A DNA stretch of 64,000 bases from Halobacterium sp. KA-4 (lineage in GTDB: Archaea; Halobacteriota; Halobacteria; Halobacteriales; Halobacteriaceae), in assembly GCF_021028995.1 (NCBI RefSeq), contig NZ_JAJJZG010000001.1, positions 310,001 through 374,000 of the forward strand, written 5' to 3'. Shown piece by piece: positions 5,301 to 62,716 of the stretch. Below the pieces are notes generated by a model. The model was given only the letters and a program-made list of their open reading frames with translations, did not search any database and was not told where the DNA came from. Every line of letters starts with the position of its first letter. Position 1 is the first letter of the stretch. The position numbers were made by a program, and so were the translations under genes.

Positions 5301-6116
5301 TTACGACGGGACGGTGCAGCCTTCGACGTACTCGACGTCCGCGACGGAGTCGATGGCGGGGTCGTCGCCGCAGACCGGGCAGTCGGGATTCTTCGCGACC
5401 GGTACCGTCTCGAAGGACATGTCGCCGGCGTCGTAGAACAGCAGGCGGCCGGTGAGGCGCTCGCCGTAGTCGAGCAGGCCCTTCACGCACTCGGTGGCCT
5501 GAATGCAGCCCATCGTCCCGGGGAGGATGCCGAGCACGCCCGCGGTCGCGCAGTCGGGAATCGTTCCTTCTGGTGGGGCTTCCGGGAACAGGCAGCGGTA
5601 GCAGGCGTTTCCGGGTTCGTACGTGATTGCCTGGCCCTCGAAGCGGTAGATGGCGGCGTGGCTGAACGGAATCTCGCGGAGCACGCAGGCGTCGTTGACG
5701 AGGTAGCGCGTCGCGAAGTTGTCCGAACAGTCCACCACGTAGTCGACGCCGTCGAGGAACTCGCCGACGTTCGACTGGTCGAGGCGCGTGACGTGCGCGT
5801 CGACGTCCACGTCGGGGTTGAGGTCCTCGACGTACTCGCGGGCGCTCTCGGCCTTCGGGCGGCCGACGTCGGCGTCCGCGTGGATGATTTGGCGCTGGAG
5901 GTTCGAGCGCTCGACGTCGTCGTGGTCGACGATGCGGAGCCGGCCGACGCCCGCGGCCGCGAGGTACTGGATGACCGGCGCGCCCAGACCGCCCGCACCC
6001 ACCACGAGCACGTCGCCGTCGAGCAGGCGCTTCTGGCCCTCGGCGCCGACGTCGTCCATGATGATGTGTCGCGAGTAGCGGTCGAGCTGCACCGGGTCGA
6101 GATTCAGCCCGGACAT
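5301..6116 (-). CDS. ubaA: SAMP-activating E1-like enzyme UbaA (MoeB/ThiF family)
   Basis: A 271-residue E1-like adenylyltransferase. The nucleotide-binding glycine motif is VVGAGGLGAP near 38-46, the adenylation-site arginine lies in RSNLQRQ near residue 70, the active-site Cys is about 189 (IPDCATAG) and two zinc-binding pairs are CYRC (172/175) and CPVC near 245. In Haloferax, UbaA activates the ubiquitin-like SAMP proteins for protein conjugation and for sulfur transfer to molybdopterin and tRNA thiolation; length and cysteine spacing match that enzyme. No SAMP gene is adjacent. The ATG at 6116 is preferred over longer in-frame starts because the N-terminal E1 helix begins directly after it. 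It converges on the hydrolase gene with 10 bases between stops. Confidence 0.9.
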   Translation of the reverse strand: MSGLNLDPVQLDRYSRHIIMDDVGAEGQKRLLDGDVLVVGAGGLGAPVIQYLAAAGVGRLRIVDHDDVERSNLQRQIIHADADVGRPKAESAREYVEDLNPDVDVDAHVTRLDQSNVGEFLDGVDYVVDCSDNFATRYLVNDACVLREIPFSHAAIYRFEGQAITYEPGNACYRCLFPEAPPEGTIPDCATAGVLGILPGTMGCIQATECVKGLLDYGERLTGRLLFYDAGDMSFETVPVAKNPDCPVCGDDPAIDSVADVEYVEGCTVPS

Positions 6117-6314
6117 ACCCGTGGGGACGGCGTGGGCGCGGGTAAGCGTTTCCCGTCCGGCAGCACGCGTCGACGAAGCTGTCGCTGGCGGGTGTAGCGA
6201 CGAAAGAACTACGGGTACCCCTACCCGGCAGTGGCTCATACCGACTCCCCCGGTAAATGTCTTGTCAGGTCGAATCGCGACCGATAGGGACGGACTAAAT
6301 CCCGATAGAGCCCC

Positions 6315-7160
6315 TTAGCCGCCGTATTCGGCGGTTTCTGAGTCAGCGGGGAGCGCGCGACGGATTCGCCGGGCCGTGGTGGCGACCTCGTCGCTGGCGC
6401 GCCCGACCGCGCTCAACAGCGGGTGCGACGACGACAGCGACTGGTAGAGGTACTCGTTGAGCGGGCGGGCTTCCGCGGACGGCACGTGGACGGTCTTCGG
6501 TTCGAGGTCGCCCGCCTGGCGGCGGACGGCGAGGTCCTGGCAGTCGGCTTCGAGGGCGTCGAGGTCCGCGAGGAGCTGCCGGAGTTCGTGCGGCGGACAG
6601 CCGTAGAACGGCCGCGAACGAATCGCTACGAGGTCCTCGTGGACGGCGCGGAGCGTCCGCTCGGCGGCGTCGAGCGCGCTCGCCTCGTCGTAGAGGTCCG
6701 AGCAGAGTCGCTTGCGGCTGCGCTTGGACTCGCGGGCCGCGGCGAGCAGTTGGTCGCGCAGGAGCGGCGTCACGCGAGCAGCCTGCCGGAGCGCCACCGC
6801 CAACTCCGCTCCGAACTCCGAGGCCACGCTCTCCCAGTAGGTGTCGCCGTACTCGGCCGCGTAGTGCGGGGCGTCCATGACCGTCTCGACGTACGCCTCC
6901 CGAATCGCGACACTCGCGGTGCTGTCGGCGTGGTCGCGTCGAGTAGCAAGCGTGGTCGTCGCCGACCGAGCGGGCATCGAGTCGGCGGACTCGGCGTCGA
7001 CGTCGACCGACTGGACGCGCCGGCAGAACCGCGTGAAAGCGTCGGCTTCCGTCTGGAGAATGTGTCGTTCGCGGCGGAGTGCGCGGCGCGCGTCGGGAAT
7101 CCACTCCCCGAAGCCCGCGGTCGCGTCGGTCCCGTGCCCCCGAGTGGCAGACTGTGGCAT
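6315..7160 (-). CDS. Haloarchaeal helical protein of unknown function (DUF7260-like)
   Basis: A 281-residue, almost wholly alpha-helical soluble protein, rich in Arg, Glu and Ala, with heptad-like stretches that suggest coiled coils. There is no signal peptide or membrane segment. I believe it belongs to a haloarchaeal family annotated DUF7260, but no function is known. It is transcribed away from the histidine kinase gene, with about 170 bases of shared upstream DNA. The ATG at 7160 (MPQSATRG) is preferred; an upstream in-frame start would add a hydrophobic stretch with no similarity to the family. Confidence 0.6.
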   Translation of the reverse strand: MPQSATRGHGTDATAGFGEWIPDARRALRRERHILQTEADAFTRFCRRVQSVDVDAESADSMPARSATTTLATRRDHADSTASVAIREAYVETVMDAPHYAAEYGDTYWESVASEFGAELAVALRQAARVTPLLRDQLLAAARESKRSRKRLCSDLYDEASALDAAERTLRAVHEDLVAIRSRPFYGCPPHELRQLLADLDALEADCQDLAVRRQAGDLEPKTVHVPSAEARPLNEYLYQSLSSSHPLLSAVGRASDEVATTARRIRRALPADSETAEYGG

Positions 7161-7327
7161 ATCCGTGGCTTCGACAGCGCTCGTATAGAAGACTGCTAGG
7201 AGTGCTATATTGGTCTCGGTGCCCGTCCCCACCCGGGACCGAGTTCGGCCGATGCGTTCAGGTGGCCGCGGCGTCAGTAGCGACGTATAGATGAACGCGC
7301 GACGCGGTGCCGAACACGTGATTGCCG

Positions 7328-8809
7328 ATGAGTGACGCGCCGGAGTTCCCCTTTCTGGACGCGCTCGACGACGTGTTTCTGGGGTTCGACGAAGACGGGG
7401 CCGTCGTGGTGTGGAACCGAGCAGCCGAGAACGTGACCGGCTACACCGACGCCGAATTGGCGGCGGCGACGCTCGGCGACCTCTTCGACGTCCAGACTAC
7501 GGAAGTCGTCGACGAACTGTTCGACACCGGGTCGGCGGTCGTCGAAGCCGACCTCGTGACCGCCGACGGCGACCGCATCCCCTACGACTTCGAGGCCCAC
7601 CGCGTCGCCGCCGACTCCCCCGCCGCCTTCGCCGGCATCGGTCGCGACGTGACGGAGCGCCACGACCAACGAGCACGCATCGAGGCGCGCGAGCAGTTCC
7701 TGCGCGAGATGTACGAAGTCATCGCGAACCGCCAGCGGTCGTTCACGGAGAAAGTCGAGGCGCTGCTCGCGCTGGGCCGCGACGAACTGGGGACGGCGTA
7801 CGGGACGCTCTCGAAAATTGACGGCGAGGACTACGTCTTCGAAATCGTGGACGCCGACGACGACAGCATCCAGGCGGGCGACGTCGTCCCGCTCTCGGCG
7901 ACGAACTGCGAGCGCGCCGCCAGCGACGAACAGACCCTCGTGCTCGGCGACATCGCGCGGGACGCTCCCAAGGAGACCGACCGCGCCGGCTACACGGAGT
8001 GGGGAATCTCGTGTTACATCGGTGCGCCCGTGTTCGTCGACGACGACGTATACGGGACGTTCTGCTTCTACGACACGGAGCCACGCGACGGCCAGTTCTC
8101 GGAGTGGGAGGTCACACTCGTCGACCTCATGAGCCGCTGGGTGAGCTACGAACTCCAGCGCGACCGCGCAAACGAGCGACTGCAGCGCCAGAACGAGCGC
8201 CTGGAGGAGTTCGCGTCGGTCGTCTCCCACGACCTCCGGAACCCACTGAACGTCGTCGAAGGCTCCCTCGAACTGGCGGACGAGACCGGCGACGTCAAGC
8301 ACCTGGACCGTGCTCGGCGCGCGCTCAACCGCATGGAGACCCTCATCGACGACCTCCTGACGCTCGCGCGCTCCGACACGGCGCTCGGCGAGACGGAAGC
8401 GGTCGACCTCGCGTTGTTCAGCCGCGAGTGCTGGGAGACCATCCCGTCCGGGGGTGCCGCGCTCGCGGTCGAAACCGACCAGATCATCGAAGCCGACCGA
8501 ACGCGCCTCCAGCAACTCCTCGAGAACGTCTTCCGGAATGCGGTAGAACATGGCGGCGACGCTCCCACCGTCCGCGTCGGCGACCTCGACGACGGCTTCT
8601 ACGTCGAGGACGACGGCCCCGGGATTCCCGAGGACGAACGACAGACCGTCTTCGAGCGGGGCTACTCGACGACCCCTGAGGGAACGGGCTTCGGGCTCGC
8701 CATCGTCGCGGAGATCGCACACGCTCACGACTGGGACGTCGTCGTGGCCGACAGTGCGAGCGGCGGCGCACGCTTCGAATTCGTCGAAGCGGACGCACAG
8801 CGCGCGTAA
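7328..8809 (+). CDS. PAS-GAF sensor histidine kinase
   Basis: A 493-residue soluble sensor kinase. An N-terminal PAS domain (about 8-115, with VVVWNRAAENVTGYT) is followed by a GAF domain (about 130-275), a linking coiled coil and a HisKA dimerisation domain with phospho-acceptor His301 in VVSHDLRNPLN. The HATPase domain has the N box (LLENVFRNAVEHG, near 400), DDGPGIPE and the G2 box GTGFGLAIV. Such kinases are very common in haloarchaea and usually orphan; no response regulator is adjacent. The ligand or signal is unknown. Both TTG (7322) and ATG (7328) are possible starts; ATG is chosen. A TATAG box lies about 40 bases upstream. Confidence 0.9.
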   Translation: MSDAPEFPFLDALDDVFLGFDEDGAVVVWNRAAENVTGYTDAELAAATLGDLFDVQTTEVVDELFDTGSAVVEADLVTADGDRIPYDFEAHRVAADSPAAFAGIGRDVTERHDQRARIEAREQFLREMYEVIANRQRSFTEKVEALLALGRDELGTAYGTLSKIDGEDYVFEIVDADDDSIQAGDVVPLSATNCERAASDEQTLVLGDIARDAPKETDRAGYTEWGISCYIGAPVFVDDDVYGTFCFYDTEPRDGQFSEWEVTLVDLMSRWVSYELQRDRANERLQRQNERLEEFASVVSHDLRNPLNVVEGSLELADETGDVKHLDRARRALNRMETLIDDLLTLARSDTALGETEAVDLALFSRECWETIPSGGAALAVETDQIIEADRTRLQQLLENVFRNAVEHGGDAPTVRVGDLDDGFYVEDDGPGIPEDERQTVFERGYSTTPEGTGFGLAIVAEIAHAHDWDVVVADSASGGARFEFVEADAQRA

Positions 8810-8947
8810 GGCTGGCGGACTTGTGAACCCAGAGGAAGACGTGCTCGCTCACTCCATTCGCTGGCCGCGACTTTCAGAGTTCAAAGCCTGCCTAGTTACA
8901 GCCGAGCAGCGACCCACGCGTTGCTGCGCGACATCGATACAGAAACG

Positions 8948-9056
8948 TGGGGCCTGGCGGATTTGAACCACCGCTCACCCGGTGTCCCACGACACCCGCC
9001 CCGTGACGGACGCCGATATGAGCCGGGGGCTTTGAACCAGACTAAGCTAAGGCCCC
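8948..9056 (-). tRNA. tRNA-Met (CAU), intron-containing
   Basis: Read on the minus strand, the acceptor stem GGGGCCT pairs with AGGCCCC, the D arm is GCTT/AAGC and the T arm is GGTGG/CCGCC around TTCAAAT. The anticodon stem CCCGG/CCGGG is split by 33 extra bases (8984-9016) after position 37, the usual archaeal intron site; the intron can form the bulge-helix-bulge needed by the splicing endonuclease. The anticodon is CAU. Haloarchaeal elongator tRNA-Met carries an intron here, so elongator Met is the best call. The Ile2 isoacceptor, which also has a CAU anticodon, is not fully excluded. CCA is not encoded; the cca gene lies just beyond. Confidence 0.85.
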
Positions 9057-9146
9057 TCGCACACCGCTTCCCGTGGCCGAACCTTTAGCCTGTCGGGATT
9101 CCACGACAGCGCAGCCGAGGCTGCGCGAGTGAGTGTAGTAAAAGTA

Positions 9147-9219
9147 CGCCGCCACCAGGGCTCGAACCTGGGACAACCTGGGTAACAACCAGGTGCTCTA
9201 CCAACTGAGCTATGGCGGC
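9147..9219 (-). tRNA. tRNA-Asn (GUU)
   Basis: On the minus strand the acceptor stem GCCGCCA pairs with TGGCGGC, the D arm is GCTC/GAGC, the anticodon stem CCTGG/CCAGG closes a loop with GTT, and the T arm is CCAGG/CCTGG. The structure is complete, has no intron and ends with discriminator G. Confidence 0.95.
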
Positions 9220-9319
9220 TCGCACCCGTTTCTACCCGGTGCGTTTTGAAATGGCTTTCGTTTCGCCAGCAGACTCGGGCATCGACACGGCTTAGGCGCG
9301 GCCGCGTGAATTCGGCCGC

Positions 9320-10669
9320 ATGAGCGACTTCGAGACGGTGCTCGACGCCGTCCGCGAGCGCGTGGACCCGACGCCGGCCGAGCGGCGCGCGCTCGCCGAG
9401 GCCGCGGAGCGGCTGGCCGACCGAGCGCGGGACGCCATCGCGGAGTTGCCCGTCGAGGCGGACGTCATGCAGGTCGGGAGTACGGCGCGCGGGACGTGGG
9501 TCGCGGGCGACCGCGACATCGACCTGTTCGTGCGATTCCCACCTGACCTCCCACGCGAGGAGCTACAGGAGTACGGGCTCGAAGTTGGCAACGAGGTGCT
9601 TCCGGAGGGCCGCGAAGAGTACGCCGAACACCCCTACGTGAAGGGAACGTTTGAGGGGTACGACGTGGACCTCGTGCCGTGCTACCGTCTGGAGTCCGCG
9701 ACCGACATCCAGTCGGCGGTCGACCGTACGCCGTTCCACAACGCGTACCTCGAGGAGCGACTGAGCGACGAGGACGCCGGCGACGTACGGCTGTTCAAGC
9801 AGTTCCTGAAGGGCATCGGAGCGTACGGCAGCGACCTCCGAACGCAGGGGTTCTCGGGCTACCTCACGGAACTGCTCGTGCTGGAGTACGGCGGGTTCCG
9901 GGAGACGCTGGACGCGATTCGGGACTGGAAGCCGCCGGTCGTCCTCGATCCCGAGGACCACGCGGAAGCGGAGTTCGACGACCCGCTGGTGGTCGTCGAC
10001 CCGACCGACCCGGAGCGCAACGTCGCCGCGGTCGTCTCCGCGGAGAACGTCGCGCGCGTCCAGCACTACGCCCGCGAGTTCCTCGCCGACCCCGACGAGC
10101 GCGTCTTCGAGCTGGCGACGCCCGACCCGCTCGGCGCGGAGGAGGTCCGCAAGCACGTCGAAGAGCGCGGGACGACGCCACTAGCAGTCGTCTTCGAGGC
10201 CCCGGGCCTCGTGGAGGACCAACTCTACCCGCAGTTGTATCGCTCTCGGGACGGCCTCGTGCGCGGACTCGAAATCGAGGGGTTTGAGGTGCTGCGCGCG
10301 GCGACGTGGGCGGACGACCGCGCGGTGCTGTTCGCGGAGCTAACCGTGAGCGAACTTCCAGCAGTCGAGCGCCACGAGGGACCGCCCGTCCACGTCGGCG
10401 GGCACGCACAGGGGTTCTACGAGAAATACGCGGACAGCGACGCTGCCGGGCCGTTCCTCGACGGCGACCGGTACGTCGTCGAGCGCGAACGCGACATCAG
10501 GACCGCCGAGGGGTTCGTCGAGACCCAACTCGAAGACGTCGCACTCGGTGCGCACGTCGAGTCCATCGTGGAAGCCGGGGACTACGAAGTGCTCGCTGGC
10601 AGGGAAGTTTCGGAACTCGCGGACGGCTTCGGAACGGAACTCGCAGCGTACTTCGAACCGTCCGTCTGA
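9320..10669 (+). CDS. cca: Archaeal class I CCA-adding enzyme
   Basis: A 449-residue tRNA nucleotidyltransferase that builds or repairs the 3'-CCA end of tRNAs. The nucleotidyltransferase motif is clear: Gly53-Ser54 in GSTARGTW, followed by the metal-binding Asp66 and Asp68 in DRDIDLF, and a third acidic residue in YDVDLVPCY. Length is typical for the archaeal class I enzyme. The two neighbouring tRNA genes lack encoded CCA, which fits its role. A TATA-like CTTAGG box is centred 27 bases before the ATG, indicating a leaderless mRNA. Confidence 0.95.
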   Translation: MSDFETVLDAVRERVDPTPAERRALAEAAERLADRARDAIAELPVEADVMQVGSTARGTWVAGDRDIDLFVRFPPDLPREELQEYGLEVGNEVLPEGREEYAEHPYVKGTFEGYDVDLVPCYRLESATDIQSAVDRTPFHNAYLEERLSDEDAGDVRLFKQFLKGIGAYGSDLRTQGFSGYLTELLVLEYGGFRETLDAIRDWKPPVVLDPEDHAEAEFDDPLVVVDPTDPERNVAAVVSAENVARVQHYAREFLADPDERVFELATPDPLGAEEVRKHVEERGTTPLAVVFEAPGLVEDQLYPQLYRSRDGLVRGLEIEGFEVLRAATWADDRAVLFAELTVSELPAVERHEGPPVHVGGHAQGFYEKYADSDAAGPFLDGDRYVVERERDIRTAEGFVETQLEDVALGAHVESIVEAGDYEVLAGREVSELADGFGTELAAYFEPSV

Positions 10670-10687
10670 GGTCGCTTTTCGTTCGAG

Positions 10688-11695
10688 TCAGAGCGCGGGG
10701 TGGGAGGCGCGGATGTCGTCGAGCAAGTCGCGGACGGCATCGCTGACCTCGTCGTCGGGACCGACGGGTTCGCGGCCGTCGAACGTCTCGTGGACCATGC
10801 CGATGCCGTCCGCGAGCGTGTCGAGGCTGTAGCCGCCTTCCAGAATGAACGCCAGCGCCGCGTCCGTCGCGTCGGCGAGCGTCCGGACGCGGTCGGCGAG
10901 CAGGCCGTAGCCTTCCGTAGTGACGTGCATCCGCGAGATTGGGTCGTGGCGGTGGGCGTCGAAGCCCGCGCTCACGAGGAAGACGTCCGGGTCGAACTCG
11001 GCGAGTGCGGGTTCGAGCAGTTCGTCGAACGCCGCACAGAAGTCGGCGTCCCCGGAGCCCGCGGGGAACGGCGCGTTCAGCGTCGAGCCGACGCCGTCGC
11101 CCTCGCCGTACTCGTCGGCGTCACCAGTCCCCGGGTAGAGGCCGTCCTCGTGCACGGACGCGTAGAAGACGTCGCTGCGGTCGTAGAAGATGTCCTGCGT
11201 GCCGTTGCCGTGGTGGACGTCCCAGTCGAAGATGGCGACGCGGTCCGCGTCGAGGTCGTCAAGGGCGTACTGAGCGGCGACGGCAGCGTTGTTCAGGAAA
11301 CAGAAGCCCATCGCGTCGTCGAAGACCGCATGGTGGCCCGGCGGCCGGCCGAGCGCGAACGGCGTGTTCCGGCCGTCGGCGCCGTTCACCGCTGCGCGCG
11401 TGGCATCCTTCGCGAGGCCCGCGCTAGCGAGCGCGGCCGGCCACGTCTCCTCGGAGGCGGTCGTGTCGGGGTCCCAGTCGCCGCCGCCGGACTCGCAGAA
11501 GTCGCGAATCTCGTCGACATAGTCGGGGTCGTGGACCGCCGCGACGTCGGCTTCGGTGGCTGGCGTGGCGCCCTCGTAGGTGACGCTGTGGCGCTTGGCG
11601 AGCCCGCGCTTGATGGCGCGCAGTCGGTCCGGGCTCTCGGGGTGGCGTGGGCCCGGGTCGTGTGCGAGACACGTCTCGCTGAACCCGAATCTCAT
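10688..11695 (-). CDS. Histone deacetylase family protein (acetoin utilisation/class II HDAC type)
   Basis: A 335-residue zinc-dependent deacetylase fold. The catalytic tandem His pair is His121-His122 (PPGHHA), zinc ligands lie in DWDVHHGNG (Asp159, His161) and AGFDAHRHDP, and the transition-state aromatic/glycine motif is EGGYS. All catalytic residues are kept. It begins four bases inside the end of the histone gene, so the two are translated from one message. Substrates in haloarchaea are unproven: acetyl-lysine on proteins, acetylpolyamines and acetoin-related compounds are all possible. Co-transcription with a histone makes chromatin-protein deacetylation an attractive but untested idea. 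Confidence 0.9.
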   Translation of the reverse strand: MRFGFSETCLAHDPGPRHPESPDRLRAIKRGLAKRHSVTYEGATPATEADVAAVHDPDYVDEIRDFCESGGGDWDPDTTASEETWPAALASAGLAKDATRAAVNGADGRNTPFALGRPPGHHAVFDDAMGFCFLNNAAVAAQYALDDLDADRVAIFDWDVHHGNGTQDIFYDRSDVFYASVHEDGLYPGTGDADEYGEGDGVGSTLNAPFPAGSGDADFCAAFDELLEPALAEFDPDVFLVSAGFDAHRHDPISRMHVTTEGYGLLADRVRTLADATDAALAFILEGGYSLDTLADGIGMVHETFDGREPVGPDDEVSDAVRDLLDDIRASHPAL

Positions 11696-12123
11696 TCCAC
11701 GAGGTCGAAGTACGTCTGGACGTCCTCGGCCTGTACGGTGCGTCGGCCCGCGTGCTCAGCGAGTACGGCGGCGCCCTCCGCGGCGTCCGAGGCGAACGAC
11801 TCCAAGAGGTCCGCAAGCGCGACCCGGGCGTCCTTGGAGACGCGGAACCGGTCGTCGAGATCAAGGCGCGCGATGCGGTCGACCGGCGCGACCGGCAGCG
11901 TGAGTTCGTCGGCGTCGGGCACCTCGTCGACGCCGAAGTCCGCCGCCATCAGGGTCTTTCGGCCGTCCGCGGCCGCGCGTTCGGCGGCGTCCTGCGCGAG
12001 CGATGCGCCGCGGCGCTGGATGCGCCGTGCGAGTTCCTCGGCCGCGTCAGCGCTCACCCGCAAGTCACCCGCGTGCCGCCGGATGATGGTGTCGACCGGC
12101 GCGAACGGGAGTTCGACGCTCAT
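11692..12123 (-). CDS. hpyA: Doublet (two-fold) archaeal histone
   Basis: A 143-residue protein made of two tandem histone folds in one chain. The first runs about 1-68 (LPFAPVDTIIRRHAG start) and the second about 72-143 (LPVAPVDRIARLD start). Each has the helix-strand-helix pattern with R-VS-DA at the loop. This end-to-end fused, acidic histone is typical of haloarchaea. HpyA of Halobacterium acts more like a specific regulator (iron and salt responses) than a bulk packager. A TTAAC box is centred 27 bases upstream of the ATG (leaderless). It overlaps the deacetylase gene by four bases. Confidence 0.92.
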   Translation of the reverse strand: MSVELPFAPVDTIIRRHAGDLRVSADAAEELARRIQRRGASLAQDAAERAAADGRKTLMAADFGVDEVPDADELTLPVAPVDRIARLDLDDRFRVSKDARVALADLLESFASDAAEGAAVLAEHAGRRTVQAEDVQTYFDLVE

Positions 12124-12147
12124 GCGTCAATGGGTGGCTGTCGCACG

Positions 12148-12153
12148 CTTAAC
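12148..12153 (-). promoter_or_regulatory. TATA-like box of the histone-deacetylase operon
   Basis: On the minus strand GTTAAG is centred 27 bases before the histone ATG (12123), the spacing of a leaderless haloarchaeal promoter. No separate promoter is evident before the deacetylase gene. Confidence 0.5.
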
Positions 12154-12214
12154 TGTTTCCGTTGGAACGGAATCCGCCACCACGCATTTGGGAACTGCAC
12201 CCAAACCACCGAAT

Positions 12215-12442
12215 ATGGCGAAAAATCCCCACCAGGCGAACGCCGAAGAGATCGCCGACCAGGAGGTCGACGCCAACGAGGAGGAAGCCGAGGAAGTCGT
12301 CGAGGAGCGCCGCGAAGCCGACGAGGAGTACCAGGAGGAACAAATCAAAGAGGAAATCGAGCACGAGGACGAGGAACGTTACCAGGAAGCCCGCGAGGCG
12401 ACGAACGCGGACAACCACCCGGACGACGCCGAGTGGGACTAG
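12215..12442 (+). CDS. Small highly charged acidic protein, unknown function
   Basis: A 75-residue protein of which about half the residues are Glu or Asp. It has heptad-like EE/AE/VV repeats that suggest one long helix, and no cysteine or hydrophobic segment. No family recognised with confidence. It is divergent from the histone gene, and its stop codon overlaps that of the RPA gene by four bases. The upstream open frame is a run-through of antisense to the deacetylase and histone genes, so the ATG at 12215 is used. Such very acidic small proteins are frequent in haloarchaea. Confidence 0.6.
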   Translation: MAKNPHQANAEEIADQEVDANEEEAEEVVEERREADEEYQEEQIKEEIEHEDEERYQEAREATNADNHPDDAEWD

Positions 12443-13848
12443 TGTAGTTCCTCGGCGCGGAGGCGGCCGTCCTGGAGGAGTCCCCGGACGGTCACTTCCT
12501 GCCCGAGCGTGACGTCCGCGTCGGTCTCCACGCTCACGGTCTCCTCGCCGTCGTCCAGAATCACGGGGTTCTGGGCCTGCACGACGACGCCCGTGAATTC
12601 GACTTCTTCGCCGTCGTCGGTGTCGCCGTCGTCGCTCGACGAGCTATCGTCAGCGCTGCTCGGGTCGTTGCCGTCCTCGAACGCCGACAGTCCGGTCGGG
12701 CCGCTGCCCGAGTCGTCACCGTCGTCGCCGGTCGTCGCGCCGTCGGCGAGCGGGATGACCGACGACTGCCAGCCAGCGGACGCTTCGATGTCGTCCTGCC
12801 AGCCGTCCTGAATCTCGACGTCCACGAACGCGACCTCGTCGCCCGGCCCGATGTCGAGGTCGGCCTTGTCGCCCCACAGCGCCACGCGGATGTCGCCGGT
12901 GTCGTCCTGCACGCGCACGTTCCGGACTTGGCCCTCGCTGCCGTCGTCGCGGTCGAACGTGCGCTTGGGGTCCGCGGAGCGAATGACGCCCGAGATGTCG
13001 GCGATGTCCTCGAGTTCGAGGTCCTCGATGACCGTGGTGTCCGGCACGAACGCGACGTCCGCGTCGACGGGTTCGACCGCGCCGCGGTCGCCGACGTGGA
13101 GTTCGAGGCTGCCGTCGCGCTCGCGGACGTAGCCGTCCACGACTTCGACGACCTCGCCCTGCGAGAGTTCGGTCGCGGTCTCGGCCTGGTCGTCCCAGAG
13201 CGTGACGCGCACGCGCCCGGTCTCGTCGCCGAGCACGACGTTCGACACCTTCCCTTCGCTGCCGTCGTCGCGGTCGAACGTCCGCACCTCCTCGGTGCCG
13301 AGCACTTCGCCCGTGAGGTTCACGTCCGAGATGCCCAGCGAGAGGTCTTCGACGCGGTACTCGTCCTGCACCGGCACGTCGATTTCCTCGTCGTTGTCCA
13401 CCTCGACCTGGTCGGCGCTGACCTCGATGCCGTTGTAGCCGTCCTTCGGTCGGCCCTTCACGCGGAGCACGTCGCCGACTTCCAGTTGGTCTTTGGCGCC
13501 CTCGGCCTGCTCGTCCCACAGCGATAGCCGGACGCTGCCGGTCTCGTCGGCGACGTCGACGTTGACCACGCGGCCCTCCGGGTCCTCGTCGTCGTCGCGC
13601 TCGAACGTCCGCACGTCGCCGACGCTCGTCACCTTCGCGATGAACTTCACTTCGTCCATCTCGGGTTCGACGTCCGCGACGCCGTTGACCTCGCCGTCCT
13701 CCAGTTCGTGGGCGATGAGCATGGCGGCCGTTTCCTCGTCGGCCAGTCCGCCCATCTGTTCGACCTTCGACTCGACGGCGTCCCGGAACTCCTCGAGGGA
13801 CACGTCGGTGTCGAGGTCCCCGTAGACGTCCTCGATGTCGTCGCCCAT
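12439..13848 (-). CDS. rpa2: Single-stranded DNA-binding protein RPA (three or four OB folds)
   Basis: A 469-residue replication protein A homologue. An N-terminal helical region (1-60) precedes three clearly related OB folds at about 65-150, 170-260 and 285-365. Each carries the repeated signature of a TFDRDDGSEG-type loop followed by a strand and V-LWD. A Ser/Asp-rich linker (about 385-425) leads to a C-terminal OB-like segment. It binds and protects single-stranded DNA during replication and repair. Haloferax has a stand-alone RPA of this type (RpaC/Rpa2) next to the histone gene, as here. No zinc-finger partner gene follows, unlike the Rpa1/Rpa3 operons. Confidence 0.88.
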   Translation of the reverse strand: MGDDIEDVYGDLDTDVSLEEFRDAVESKVEQMGGLADEETAAMLIAHELEDGEVNGVADVEPEMDEVKFIAKVTSVGDVRTFERDDDEDPEGRVVNVDVADETGSVRLSLWDEQAEGAKDQLEVGDVLRVKGRPKDGYNGIEVSADQVEVDNDEEIDVPVQDEYRVEDLSLGISDVNLTGEVLGTEEVRTFDRDDGSEGKVSNVVLGDETGRVRVTLWDDQAETATELSQGEVVEVVDGYVRERDGSLELHVGDRGAVEPVDADVAFVPDTTVIEDLELEDIADISGVIRSADPKRTFDRDDGSEGQVRNVRVQDDTGDIRVALWGDKADLDIGPGDEVAFVDVEIQDGWQDDIEASAGWQSSVIPLADGATTGDDGDDSGSGPTGLSAFEDGNDPSSADDSSSSDDGDTDDGEEVEFTGVVVQAQNPVILDDGEETVSVETDADVTLGQEVTVRGLLQDGRLRAEELH

Positions 13849-14031
13849 AATCGTAGTTCACTCCAGACGCGAGCCGCGCATAAGCGTTGTCCTTGGGGAA
13901 TTCCGCCGTCTCCGTCCGCGGGTCGTGGATGGCACACGGCGGGATGGCGCGACCTCCAGTTTGAACCTACGGACCGTGCGCGCACCCCGAATCGTAACCG
14001 CTTTACGTAAGTCCGGGCTACGAAAGAGTGA

Positions 14032-14104
14032 GTCCGGGTAGGGTAGTGGACTATCCTCTTGGCTTGCGGAGCCAGGGACCGGAGTTCAAATCTCCGTCCG
14101 GACG
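14032..14104 (+). tRNA. tRNA-Arg (GCG)
   Basis: The acceptor stem GTCCGGG pairs with TCCGGAC, the D arm is GGGT/ATCC and the T arm is CGGAG/CTCCG. The anticodon stem TTGGC/GCCAG (with one further C-G pair possible below it) closes the loop TTGCGGA, giving anticodon GCG for CGC/CGU codons. Discriminator G. Confidence 0.88.
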
Positions 14105-14124
14105 TTCTCTCTTCACACCACGCC

Positions 14125-14150
14125 CGCGAGCGACGCTCGTGTCGCTCGTG
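14125..14150. terminator. Hairpin after tRNA-Arg
   Basis: CGCGAGCGAC and GTCGCTCGTG form a 10-bp stem (one G-U pair) with a 6-base loop, 20 bases after the tRNA. A related hairpin follows tRNA-Ala and a longer one follows fusA. A role in termination or 3'-end definition is inferred only from position. Confidence 0.4.
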
Positions 14151-14204
14151 AATCCGTCAATTGGGGCACGAAGTTCTTAGCAGTGGACCGAGTACGGGTG
14201 GGTA

Positions 14205-14960
14205 ATGAGCGAGGATCGGGCAGTGCTGTCGATAGACCCGCACGTGCACTCGGAGGGTTCGTACGACGGCAACGAGCCCGTGGAACTCATCCTCGAGCAC
14301 GCCAGCGACATCGAACTTGACGGGGTCGTGATAACGGACCACGACAGCATCGAGGAGTCGCTGCGGGCGGCAGAGTTAGCACCGGAGTACGGGCTGGTCG
14401 GGATTCCGGGCGCGGAGGTGTCGACGGACGTCGGCCACGTGCTGGCCATCGGCGTCGAGGAGTGCCCGGAGCGCGGGCAGCCGTTCGAGGCGACCGTGCG
14501 CGCAATCCGCGAGCAGGGCGGCGTCGCAGTCGTTCCGCATCCGTTCCAGCGGAGTCGACACGGCGTGCGGCGGCGGAATCTCGGGGAGTGCGACGGCATC
14601 GAGGTGTACAACTCGATGGTGTTCACGGGCTACCGGAATCGGCGCGCGCGGACGTTTGCGCGTCGCCACGACTACCCGCGGTTCGGCGCGAGCGACGCGC
14701 ACTCGATTCGGAACGTCGGGCGGGCGTACACGGACGTCGCGCTGCCGGACGTCGACCCGGAGACGCCGGCAGGCGAGATTCCGACCGAGACCGTGCTGGC
14801 GGCGCTGCGCGCGGGCGAGACGGACATCCGGGGGAAGCGGACGCCGATTCACCGGAGCACGCGCCAGTACGCGAAGGGCGCGGTGCGGAAGAGCGCGTAC
14901 CTGTTGACGAAGCGCCTGCCGTACGTGAGTCCGTGGCCGGCGTCGATGGACAGCGCCTGA
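14205..14960 (+). CDS. PHP-domain metal-dependent phosphoesterase
   Basis: A 251-residue PHP-family protein. The first metal motif has His13 and His15 in DPHVHSEGSYDG, the second is TDHDS near 46, then come PHPFQRSRHG near 110 and the closing FGASDAHS near 165. The family includes histidinol phosphatase, polymerase-associated proofreading domains and 3',5'-nucleoside bisphosphate phosphatases (TrpH/RNase AM); the substrate here is not known. The C-terminal tail after residue 200 is basic and extends beyond the metal site. It follows tRNA-Arg and precedes a DUF309 gene by 36 bases, possibly as an operon. Confidence 0.85.
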   Translation: MSEDRAVLSIDPHVHSEGSYDGNEPVELILEHASDIELDGVVITDHDSIEESLRAAELAPEYGLVGIPGAEVSTDVGHVLAIGVEECPERGQPFEATVRAIREQGGVAVVPHPFQRSRHGVRRRNLGECDGIEVYNSMVFTGYRNRRARTFARRHDYPRFGASDAHSIRNVGRAYTDVALPDVDPETPAGEIPTETVLAALRAGETDIRGKRTPIHRSTRQYAKGAVRKSAYLLTKRLPYVSPWPASMDSA

Positions 14961-14996: not shown

Positions 14997-15608
14997 ATGG
15001 ACGCGGCGCTGCGCGCGGGAATCGCGATTCACAACGCGGGCCATTATCACGCTGCCCACGACGCGTGGGAGGCGGAGTGGCTCGCGCTCGACGACGGAGC
15101 CGACGAGCGACTGCTCCACGGCCTCATTCAGTTCTCGGCGGCCATTCACCACGCTCGCGACGGGAACTGGACGGGCGCGGTCGGGCTGTGTGAGAGCGCG
15201 GGCGAGTACCTCGCGGACCTCCCGGCGGACTACCGGGGCGTGAACGTAGACGCGGTGCGAGCGTACGTGGCCGCGCTCGGGAGCGACCCGGAGCGCGTCG
15301 AGCGCGCGGCACCACCGACGCTGACGTACGAGGGGCGAGCGCTCGCGCTGGACGACTTGGACGCGCCGGCGGGCGTAGAAGCCGCGGTCGCGCTCGCGGA
15401 AGCCATTGGCTACGACGAGGACTTCGTGGAGAAGGGCGCGGAGTACGCTCGCGAGGGGCTGGCGGCGGGGGAGTTGAACGAGTTCGGGGTGTTGCTCTGT
15501 GACTTCGTCACCGAGCGCGAGCAGCGCGCGCTCGTGACGACGCGGCTGCGACAGCACGTGCAGCGGCGCCAGCGCCGAGAAGAAGACGTGGCGGGACTGT
15601 TCGACTAG
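14997..15608 (+). CDS. DUF309 domain protein
   Basis: A 203-residue helical protein. The N-terminal segment NAGHYHAAHDAWEAEW is the characteristic H-x-x-H-D/E-x-W-E motif of DUF309, and LLHGLIQFSAAIHHARDGN follows. The biochemical function of the family is unknown; the clustered histidines suggest metal binding. The C-terminal half is helical and charged, with no further domain recognised. Its stop overlaps by four bases the stop of the convergent membrane-protein gene. Confidence 0.8.
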   Translation: MDAALRAGIAIHNAGHYHAAHDAWEAEWLALDDGADERLLHGLIQFSAAIHHARDGNWTGAVGLCESAGEYLADLPADYRGVNVDAVRAYVAALGSDPERVERAAPPTLTYEGRALALDDLDAPAGVEAAVALAEAIGYDEDFVEKGAEYAREGLAAGELNEFGVLLCDFVTEREQRALVTTRLRQHVQRRQRREEDVAGLFD

Positions 15609-62644: not shown

Positions 62645-62716
62645 GGGCTCGTAGATCAGTGGTAGATCGCTTCCTTCGCAAGGAAGAGGCCCTGGGTTCA
62701 AATCCCAGCGAGTCCA
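62645..62716 (+). tRNA. tRNA-Ala (CGC)
   Basis: The acceptor stem GGGCTCG pairs with CGAGTCC, the D arm is GATC/GATC, the anticodon stem CTTCC/GGAAG closes TTCGCAA with anticodon CGC for GCG codons, and the T arm is CTGGG/CCCAG. Discriminator A. The 3' end is repeated downstream (next entries). Confidence 0.93.

Follow-up and report, generated by a model that had tools for sequence, protein, structure and literature searches.

A doublet histone gene that runs into a gene of the histone deacetylase (HDAC) family, with a gene for the single-stranded DNA binding protein RPA close by, raises the question of whether these proteins are made as one chromatin unit and whether the enzyme acts on the histone. 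We addressed it at one such locus, within a 64,000-nucleotide stretch of Halobacterium sp. KA-4 (assembly GCF_021028995.1, contig NZ_JAJJZG010000001.1, positions 310,001 to 374,000; hereafter the window). We find that the histone and HDAC genes are conserved as a two-gene unit beside RPA across the Halobacteria, and we read the locus, with a probability of roughly 60%, as an ordinary haloarchaeal histone–hdaI operon that has its own transcript and a translationally coupled HDAC, next to a separately transcribed RPA gene and an acidic open reading frame (ORF) that is a bystander. The genes in question lie as follows, in window coordinates:

10688-11695, − strand: putative class II-type, HdaI-like lysine deacetylase (HDAC), 335 amino acids; PF00850, closest solved structures HDAC6
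11692-12123, − strand: acidic doublet histone, 143 amino acids; PF00808 in two stretches, ATGA common with the HDAC start
12215-12442, + strand: acidic ORF, 75 amino acids; open frame outside the conserved unit
12439-13848, − strand: RPA-type single-stranded DNA binding protein, 469 amino acids; NF005551, OB folds (Pfam)

A tight pair in a conserved neighbourhood

The histone stop and HDAC start codons of the window overlap by four nucleotides (ATGA), as an earlier note on this DNA had described. We compared the locus across 145 Halobacteria genomes, the window's own included, each at least 90% complete; they were sampled evenly out of a larger group and cover 58 genera and 10 families. Both HDAC and doublet histone were found in all 145; in 142 the HDAC is downstream of the histone in the same orientation, and the remaining three have no HDAC there. 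In 141 of the 145 genomes its start lies no more than 24 nucleotides from the histone stop, and this tight link is therefore no quirk of one strain: the gene order, whose conservation the earlier note had left to be checked, is kept far beyond it. The exact four-nucleotide overlap is one of several spacings (−4 in 32 of 145, −1 in 15, 0 to 7 in 91, 13 to 24 in three and 605 in one), with HDAC starts set by alignment to the window protein and small gaps possibly in error by one codon or more. The 605-nucleotide gap occurs only in G131 (locus L089, 3144-5194) among the 142 linked genomes.

In 132 of 145 genomes RPA lies upstream of the histone in the same orientation and at most 400 nucleotides away, and all three genes are contiguous in 130; the RPA–histone spacing ranges from 38 to more than 2000 nucleotides. 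A set of 80 named loci, picked out through the similarity of their histones and possibly overlapping in species with the 145 genomes, gives a similar picture: all 80 have an HDAC within 144 nucleotides (79 of them within 31), and 75 have RPA on the same strand, 69 of these at no more than 400 nucleotides. The conserved block extends to two further genes, one at either end:

9320-10669, + strand: CCA-adding enzyme (Pfam), convergent with the HDAC gene
14032-14104, + strand: tRNA-Arg(GCG) (tRNA call), beyond RPA

At the 144 other histone loci, the HDAC recurs in 141, RPA in 139, tRNA-Arg(GCG) in 128 and the CCA-adding enzyme in 120, whereas genes farther out, taken as a control, are rarer (DUF309 in 60, an epimerase in 45, M48 in 11, a 78-residue ORF at 15605 in nine, a histidine kinase in seven and PHP in three). 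Recurrence of all block members at 120–141 of these loci is also what might be expected if the order from tRNA-Arg through RPA, histone and HDAC to the CCA-adding enzyme were simply frozen, several of its genes being essential and their packing dense, and histone and HDAC had nothing to do with each other in function. Such a view gains from non-haloarchaeal genomes of the same phylum, in which an HDAC gene points towards the gene for the CCA-adding enzyme in eight of the 10 HDAC loci looked at, and from one genus (g2) that has no HDAC at this place and keeps RPA, histone and CCA-adding enzyme. The histone–HDAC spacing is, however, the tighter of the two measured within the block, and we hold a merely frozen order to be unlikely, if still a serious candidate.

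Promoter pattern and acidic reading frame

We aligned the 100-base stretch that precedes the histone ATG, with weighting by genus across the 58 genera. In this average two stretches are rich in information, a BRE (B recognition element)-like ACGGAAA at −39 to −33 and a TATA-like TTAA at −29 to −26; the mean is 0.64 bits from −45 to −1 against 0.05 far upstream, with almost nothing upstream of −45, and a few genera depart from the pattern. The corresponding elements of the window are:

12149-12152, − strand: TATA-like element TTAA before the histone
12156-12162, − strand: BRE-like element ACGGAAA before the histone

A TATA box 26–29 nucleotides before the ATG fits the leaderless transcription known in haloarchaea. 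The pattern indicates that the histone–HDAC pair most likely has its own promoter and, because this pattern is the histone's own and conserved, that RPA (identified by the NCBIfam equivalog NF005551 at 750.7 bits, cut-off 575) is most likely transcribed apart from the pair. Single conserved bases also stand at −18, −13 and −9 to −7 of the 58-genus average, between TATA and ATG; a bare leaderless promoter does not need them, and they are possibly an operator.

Shine–Dalgarno-like motifs are not enriched before the HDAC start, occurring in 4.2% of the 142 linked genomes against 6.1% in shuffled sequences, a result that fits, without proving, translational coupling of the HDAC. In the operon we favour, a leaderless transcript would begin just before the histone ATG from the conserved BRE/TATA promoter, and the HDAC would be translated by coupling at the histone stop, as the tight spacing and the lack of Shine–Dalgarno enrichment suggest; RPA would be a conserved same-strand neighbour with a transcript of its own. 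Spacing and promoter pattern argue for cotranscription of histone and HDAC here, and for Haloferax volcanii cotranscription has been reported (PMC2946573). The histone doublet would be a low-abundance DNA-binding protein, in line with the low abundance described for the H. volcanii histone HstA (PMC10626798).

The earlier note had joined histone, deacetylase and RPA, with a 75-residue acidic gene between histone and RPA, into one compact block. The genes are real, their places are right and the histone–HDAC order is conserved; its observation is confirmed in part, the strand of the acidic ORF having been missed. Because that ORF lies between histone and RPA on the + strand, out of line with its neighbours, the four genes are not one unit: it points away from the histone and towards RPA, with whose stop codon its own shares CTAG at 12439-12442. 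We accordingly rejected a single four-gene unit on the strand of the acidic ORF and the histone's own promoter pattern.

The note's further suggestion, that the acidic protein is a chaperone-like partner of the histone, would make histone, HDAC, RPA and chaperone a single chromatin module. The ORF is open, adjoins the histone and encodes 42.7% aspartate plus glutamate, as such a proposal would like. It stands on the opposite strand, however, and matches no family of Pfam or NCBIfam, chaperone or other. A similarity search across the 145 genomes, accepting E values of up to 0.01, gave matches in 21, only five of them at the histone locus: the window genome, G035, G012 and G094, all of the window's genus (four of its nine genomes), and G010, of the same family and another genus, whose copy is decayed by two internal stops. 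No relative was detected at the locus in the other 140 genomes, although the histone is present in every one; G067, with a histone 97% identical to the window's, has a 116-nucleotide RPA–histone interval and no acidic match. The 16 matches elsewhere in genomes are weak and may reflect composition alone. When a script scanned 139 RPA–histone intervals for open ORFs of strongly acidic composition, it returned three, including one in G123, which belongs to another family and was unmatched by the similarity search, and it missed the relatives in G094 and G035 that the similarity search had found. On strand and distribution we rejected the chaperone, which makes the single module hardly credible; the acidic gene is a lineage-specific bystander and not a conserved partner, and a pull-down of histone with the acidic protein is unlikely to pay off.

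The deacetylase and its relatives

The HDAC matches PF00850 (Hist_deacetyl; E 4.2e-86, 289.4 bits, cut-off 27.9), has its best matches among solved structures in HDAC6, and finds no named family in NCBIfam. Six residues, H121, H122, D159, H161, D246 and Y289, which we take to be the zinc ligands, the histidine pair and the catalytic tyrosine, are identical (six of six) in 142 of 142 histone-linked homologues. The protein is thus a predicted zinc-dependent lysine deacetylase of class II type, presumably active in this strain.

In a 44-row tree the histone-linked HDACs form one group (support 100/100) of 23 rows, 21 linked and two unlinked second copies (G034b and G091b); a FastTree tree with all 142 linked HDACs likewise unites them with these two (support 0.933). 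At least 21 of the 145 genomes have more than one HDAC match, and the second copy was fetched for 10 of the 21. Six second copies (L137, L138, L139, L143, L179 and L180) make up a well-supported group of their own beside the histone-linked one.

The three genomes without the linked HDAC fall into two lineages. G001 and G007, of one genus in the window's family, keep RPA, histone and CCA-adding enzyme with no HDAC between the last two; in G021, from another family, histone and HDAC lie on different contigs. The sole PF00850 protein listed in each is of another HDAC type, 35.7–37.8% identical to that of the window. At an identity of at least 65% this type occurs in four of the 145 genomes, three of them the genomes in question, and a fifth genome has a 42% relative. 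These sequences suggest, in small numbers, a replacement of the HDAC in two lineages. In the 44-row tree the other type groups with nine of 10 HDACs from non-haloarchaeal relatives (97/94).

In G007, G093 and G021 the other HDAC type overlaps by four nucleotides a hydantoinase-like gene, its product similar to a subunit of caprolactamase or acetophenone carboxylase; the family search for this partner used the G007 copy and scored far below cut-offs. The arrangement is seen in loci L144, L147 and L153, at about 5800-8700.

In several non-haloarchaeal families (L199-L205, L209) the genes for HDAC and CCA-adding enzyme point towards one another, an old neighbourhood. A histone lies upstream of the HDAC on the same strand, 0.8–4.4 kb away, in six non-haloarchaeal loci, a number that is not a rate, L199-L204 having been chosen because listed coordinates put a histone near the HDAC; L201, L203 and L205 come from one family and are nearly alike. 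Gene order made direct descent of the histone-linked HDAC from these CCA-adjacent HDACs an attractive idea. A clade of the histone-linked group with seven of the loci (L199-L203, L205, L209) was disfavoured, however (p-AU 0.011), a value to be read as a warning only, given a clade named after the FastTree result had been seen, the omission of L204 and several long branches. The HDAC may have been replaced in place.

Around the block, Rfam at gathering scores finds only tRNAs in 8500-14400. Among them is a 109-nucleotide tRNA at 8948-9056 (−), missed by ARAGORN, that looks like an intron-containing tRNA-Met(CAT). ARAGORN in turn calls a tRNA-Ala(CGC) at 8699-8795 (−) that overlaps the end of a histidine-kinase-like ORF and has no Rfam support at gathering score; a second tRNA-Ala(CGC) is called at 62645, and the first is probably a false call.

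Lysine 56 and the target of the deacetylase

Pfam, NCBIfam, a solved-structure search and an AlphaFold2 model agree on the identity of the histone: PF00808 matches in two stretches (E 3.5e-26), the model (pLDDT 93.2) has two histone folds, and among solved folds the Methanopyrus kandleri histone 1f1e matches best. Its motifs are R55-K56-T57-D62 in fold 1 and R127-R128-T129-D134 in fold 2, where the lysine is replaced by arginine. The lysine of fold 1 is encoded here:

11956-11958, − strand: K56 codon, RKT motif in the L2 loop of histone fold 1; lysine in 145 of 145 genomes

No other lysine is universal: K56 alone is shared by all 145 histones (codon AAG in 128, AAA in 17), and in 39 of them it is the sole lysine of any kind; its equivalent in fold 2 is arginine in 144. 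Most histones (127 of 145) have one to three lysines, and lysine is scarce in the neighbouring proteins as well, at 0.9% of the window HDAC and 1.9% of the window RPA. As K56 is invariant and other lysines vary, it is the only class-wide candidate for an acetylation site. Its conservation was rejected as proof of acetylation, the RKT motif being general.

These data bear on whether the histone is a real substrate of HdaI, such that acetylation of K56 in the RKT loop, which contacts DNA, would weaken DNA binding and the HdaI encoded on the shared message would undo the modification. A lysine universal in the class and held in fold 1 alone, in a loop between model helices 25-52 and 60-63, speaks for it. 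Against it, K56 is kept also in the three genomes without the linked HDAC, and the main text of the H. volcanii acetylome paper makes no mention of HstA, HVO_0520 or HVO_0522 (PMC10294847). We think this account distinctly unlikely. Its stronger form, a one-lysine chromatin switch in which K56 is the single neutralisable site and histone and eraser, on one message, rise and fall together, seems to us quite improbable.

In H. volcanii, HdaI is reported as essential (PMC2946573) and the histone HstA (HVO_0520) as dispensable (PMC10128011); taking the two papers together, we infer that the essential target of HdaI is probably something other than the histone. In the operon reading, the essential work of the HDAC would most likely be done on other proteins, with or without the histone as a further target. 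We also rejected the four-nucleotide overlap as proof of a substrate, since an identical overlap joins the other HDAC type to a hydantoinase-like gene in three loci. The histone is a candidate substrate of the HDAC.

Several points weigh against the operon reading as we have put it. A toxic, over-acetylated histone could make HdaI essential even though the histone itself is dispensable; the essentiality findings come from H. volcanii and not from this strain; and an unrelated histone and HDAC would leave their constant, class-wide adjacency in need of another reason. In G021, moreover, the promoter pattern is absent, but the alignment there used a start that lies two codons too late.

With their class-wide pairing of the two genes, haloarchaea are well suited to asking whether acetylation controls tailless archaeal histones; the lysine survey narrows an acetylation test to one residue, and genomes that lack the linked HDAC can serve as a natural comparison. 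The pairing itself was already published for H. volcanii, while the class-wide promoter pattern, the universal K56 and the suggested HDAC replacement are new here: what we searched of the open-licence literature, in the portions available, holds no statement of a class-wide promoter, a single universal lysine or an HDAC replacement, and no paper in it treats RPA2, histone, Haloferax and deacetylase together; candidate lysines, though, have been described as conserved in haloarchaea (PMC2946573).

Among known systems, the acetylation switch of Alba by Pat and Sir2 likewise joins an archaeal chromatin protein to a cognate acetylase and deacetylase (PMC2946573), but with a different chromatin protein and another deacetylase family, and acetylation of haloarchaeal histones is unreported in the portions of the literature examined. 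Compared with HDAC6 and other class II HDACs, to which it is closest, the window HDAC has complete zinc and catalytic residues and differs as a single catalytic domain of 335 amino acids in which Pfam found no accessory domain. The nearest counterpart of the locus is HVO_0520 (hstA)–HVO_0522 (hdaI) of H. volcanii, where a doublet histone gene overlaps the class II HDAC gene behind it and is cotranscribed with it (PMC2946573). Seven named Haloferax loci show the window's histone–HDAC order, H. volcanii itself not being in the alignment; the window differs from HVO_0520–HVO_0522 in an overlap of exactly four nucleotides and in the extra acidic ORF on the other strand. Finally, with the cluster 3 acidic doublet histones of Halobacteria, HpyA among them, the window histone shares two fused folds, acidity, the RKT motif and the R-D clamp (PMC13260811), departing from them by only normal sequence variation and, in the model, a short third helix (60-63) in fold 1.

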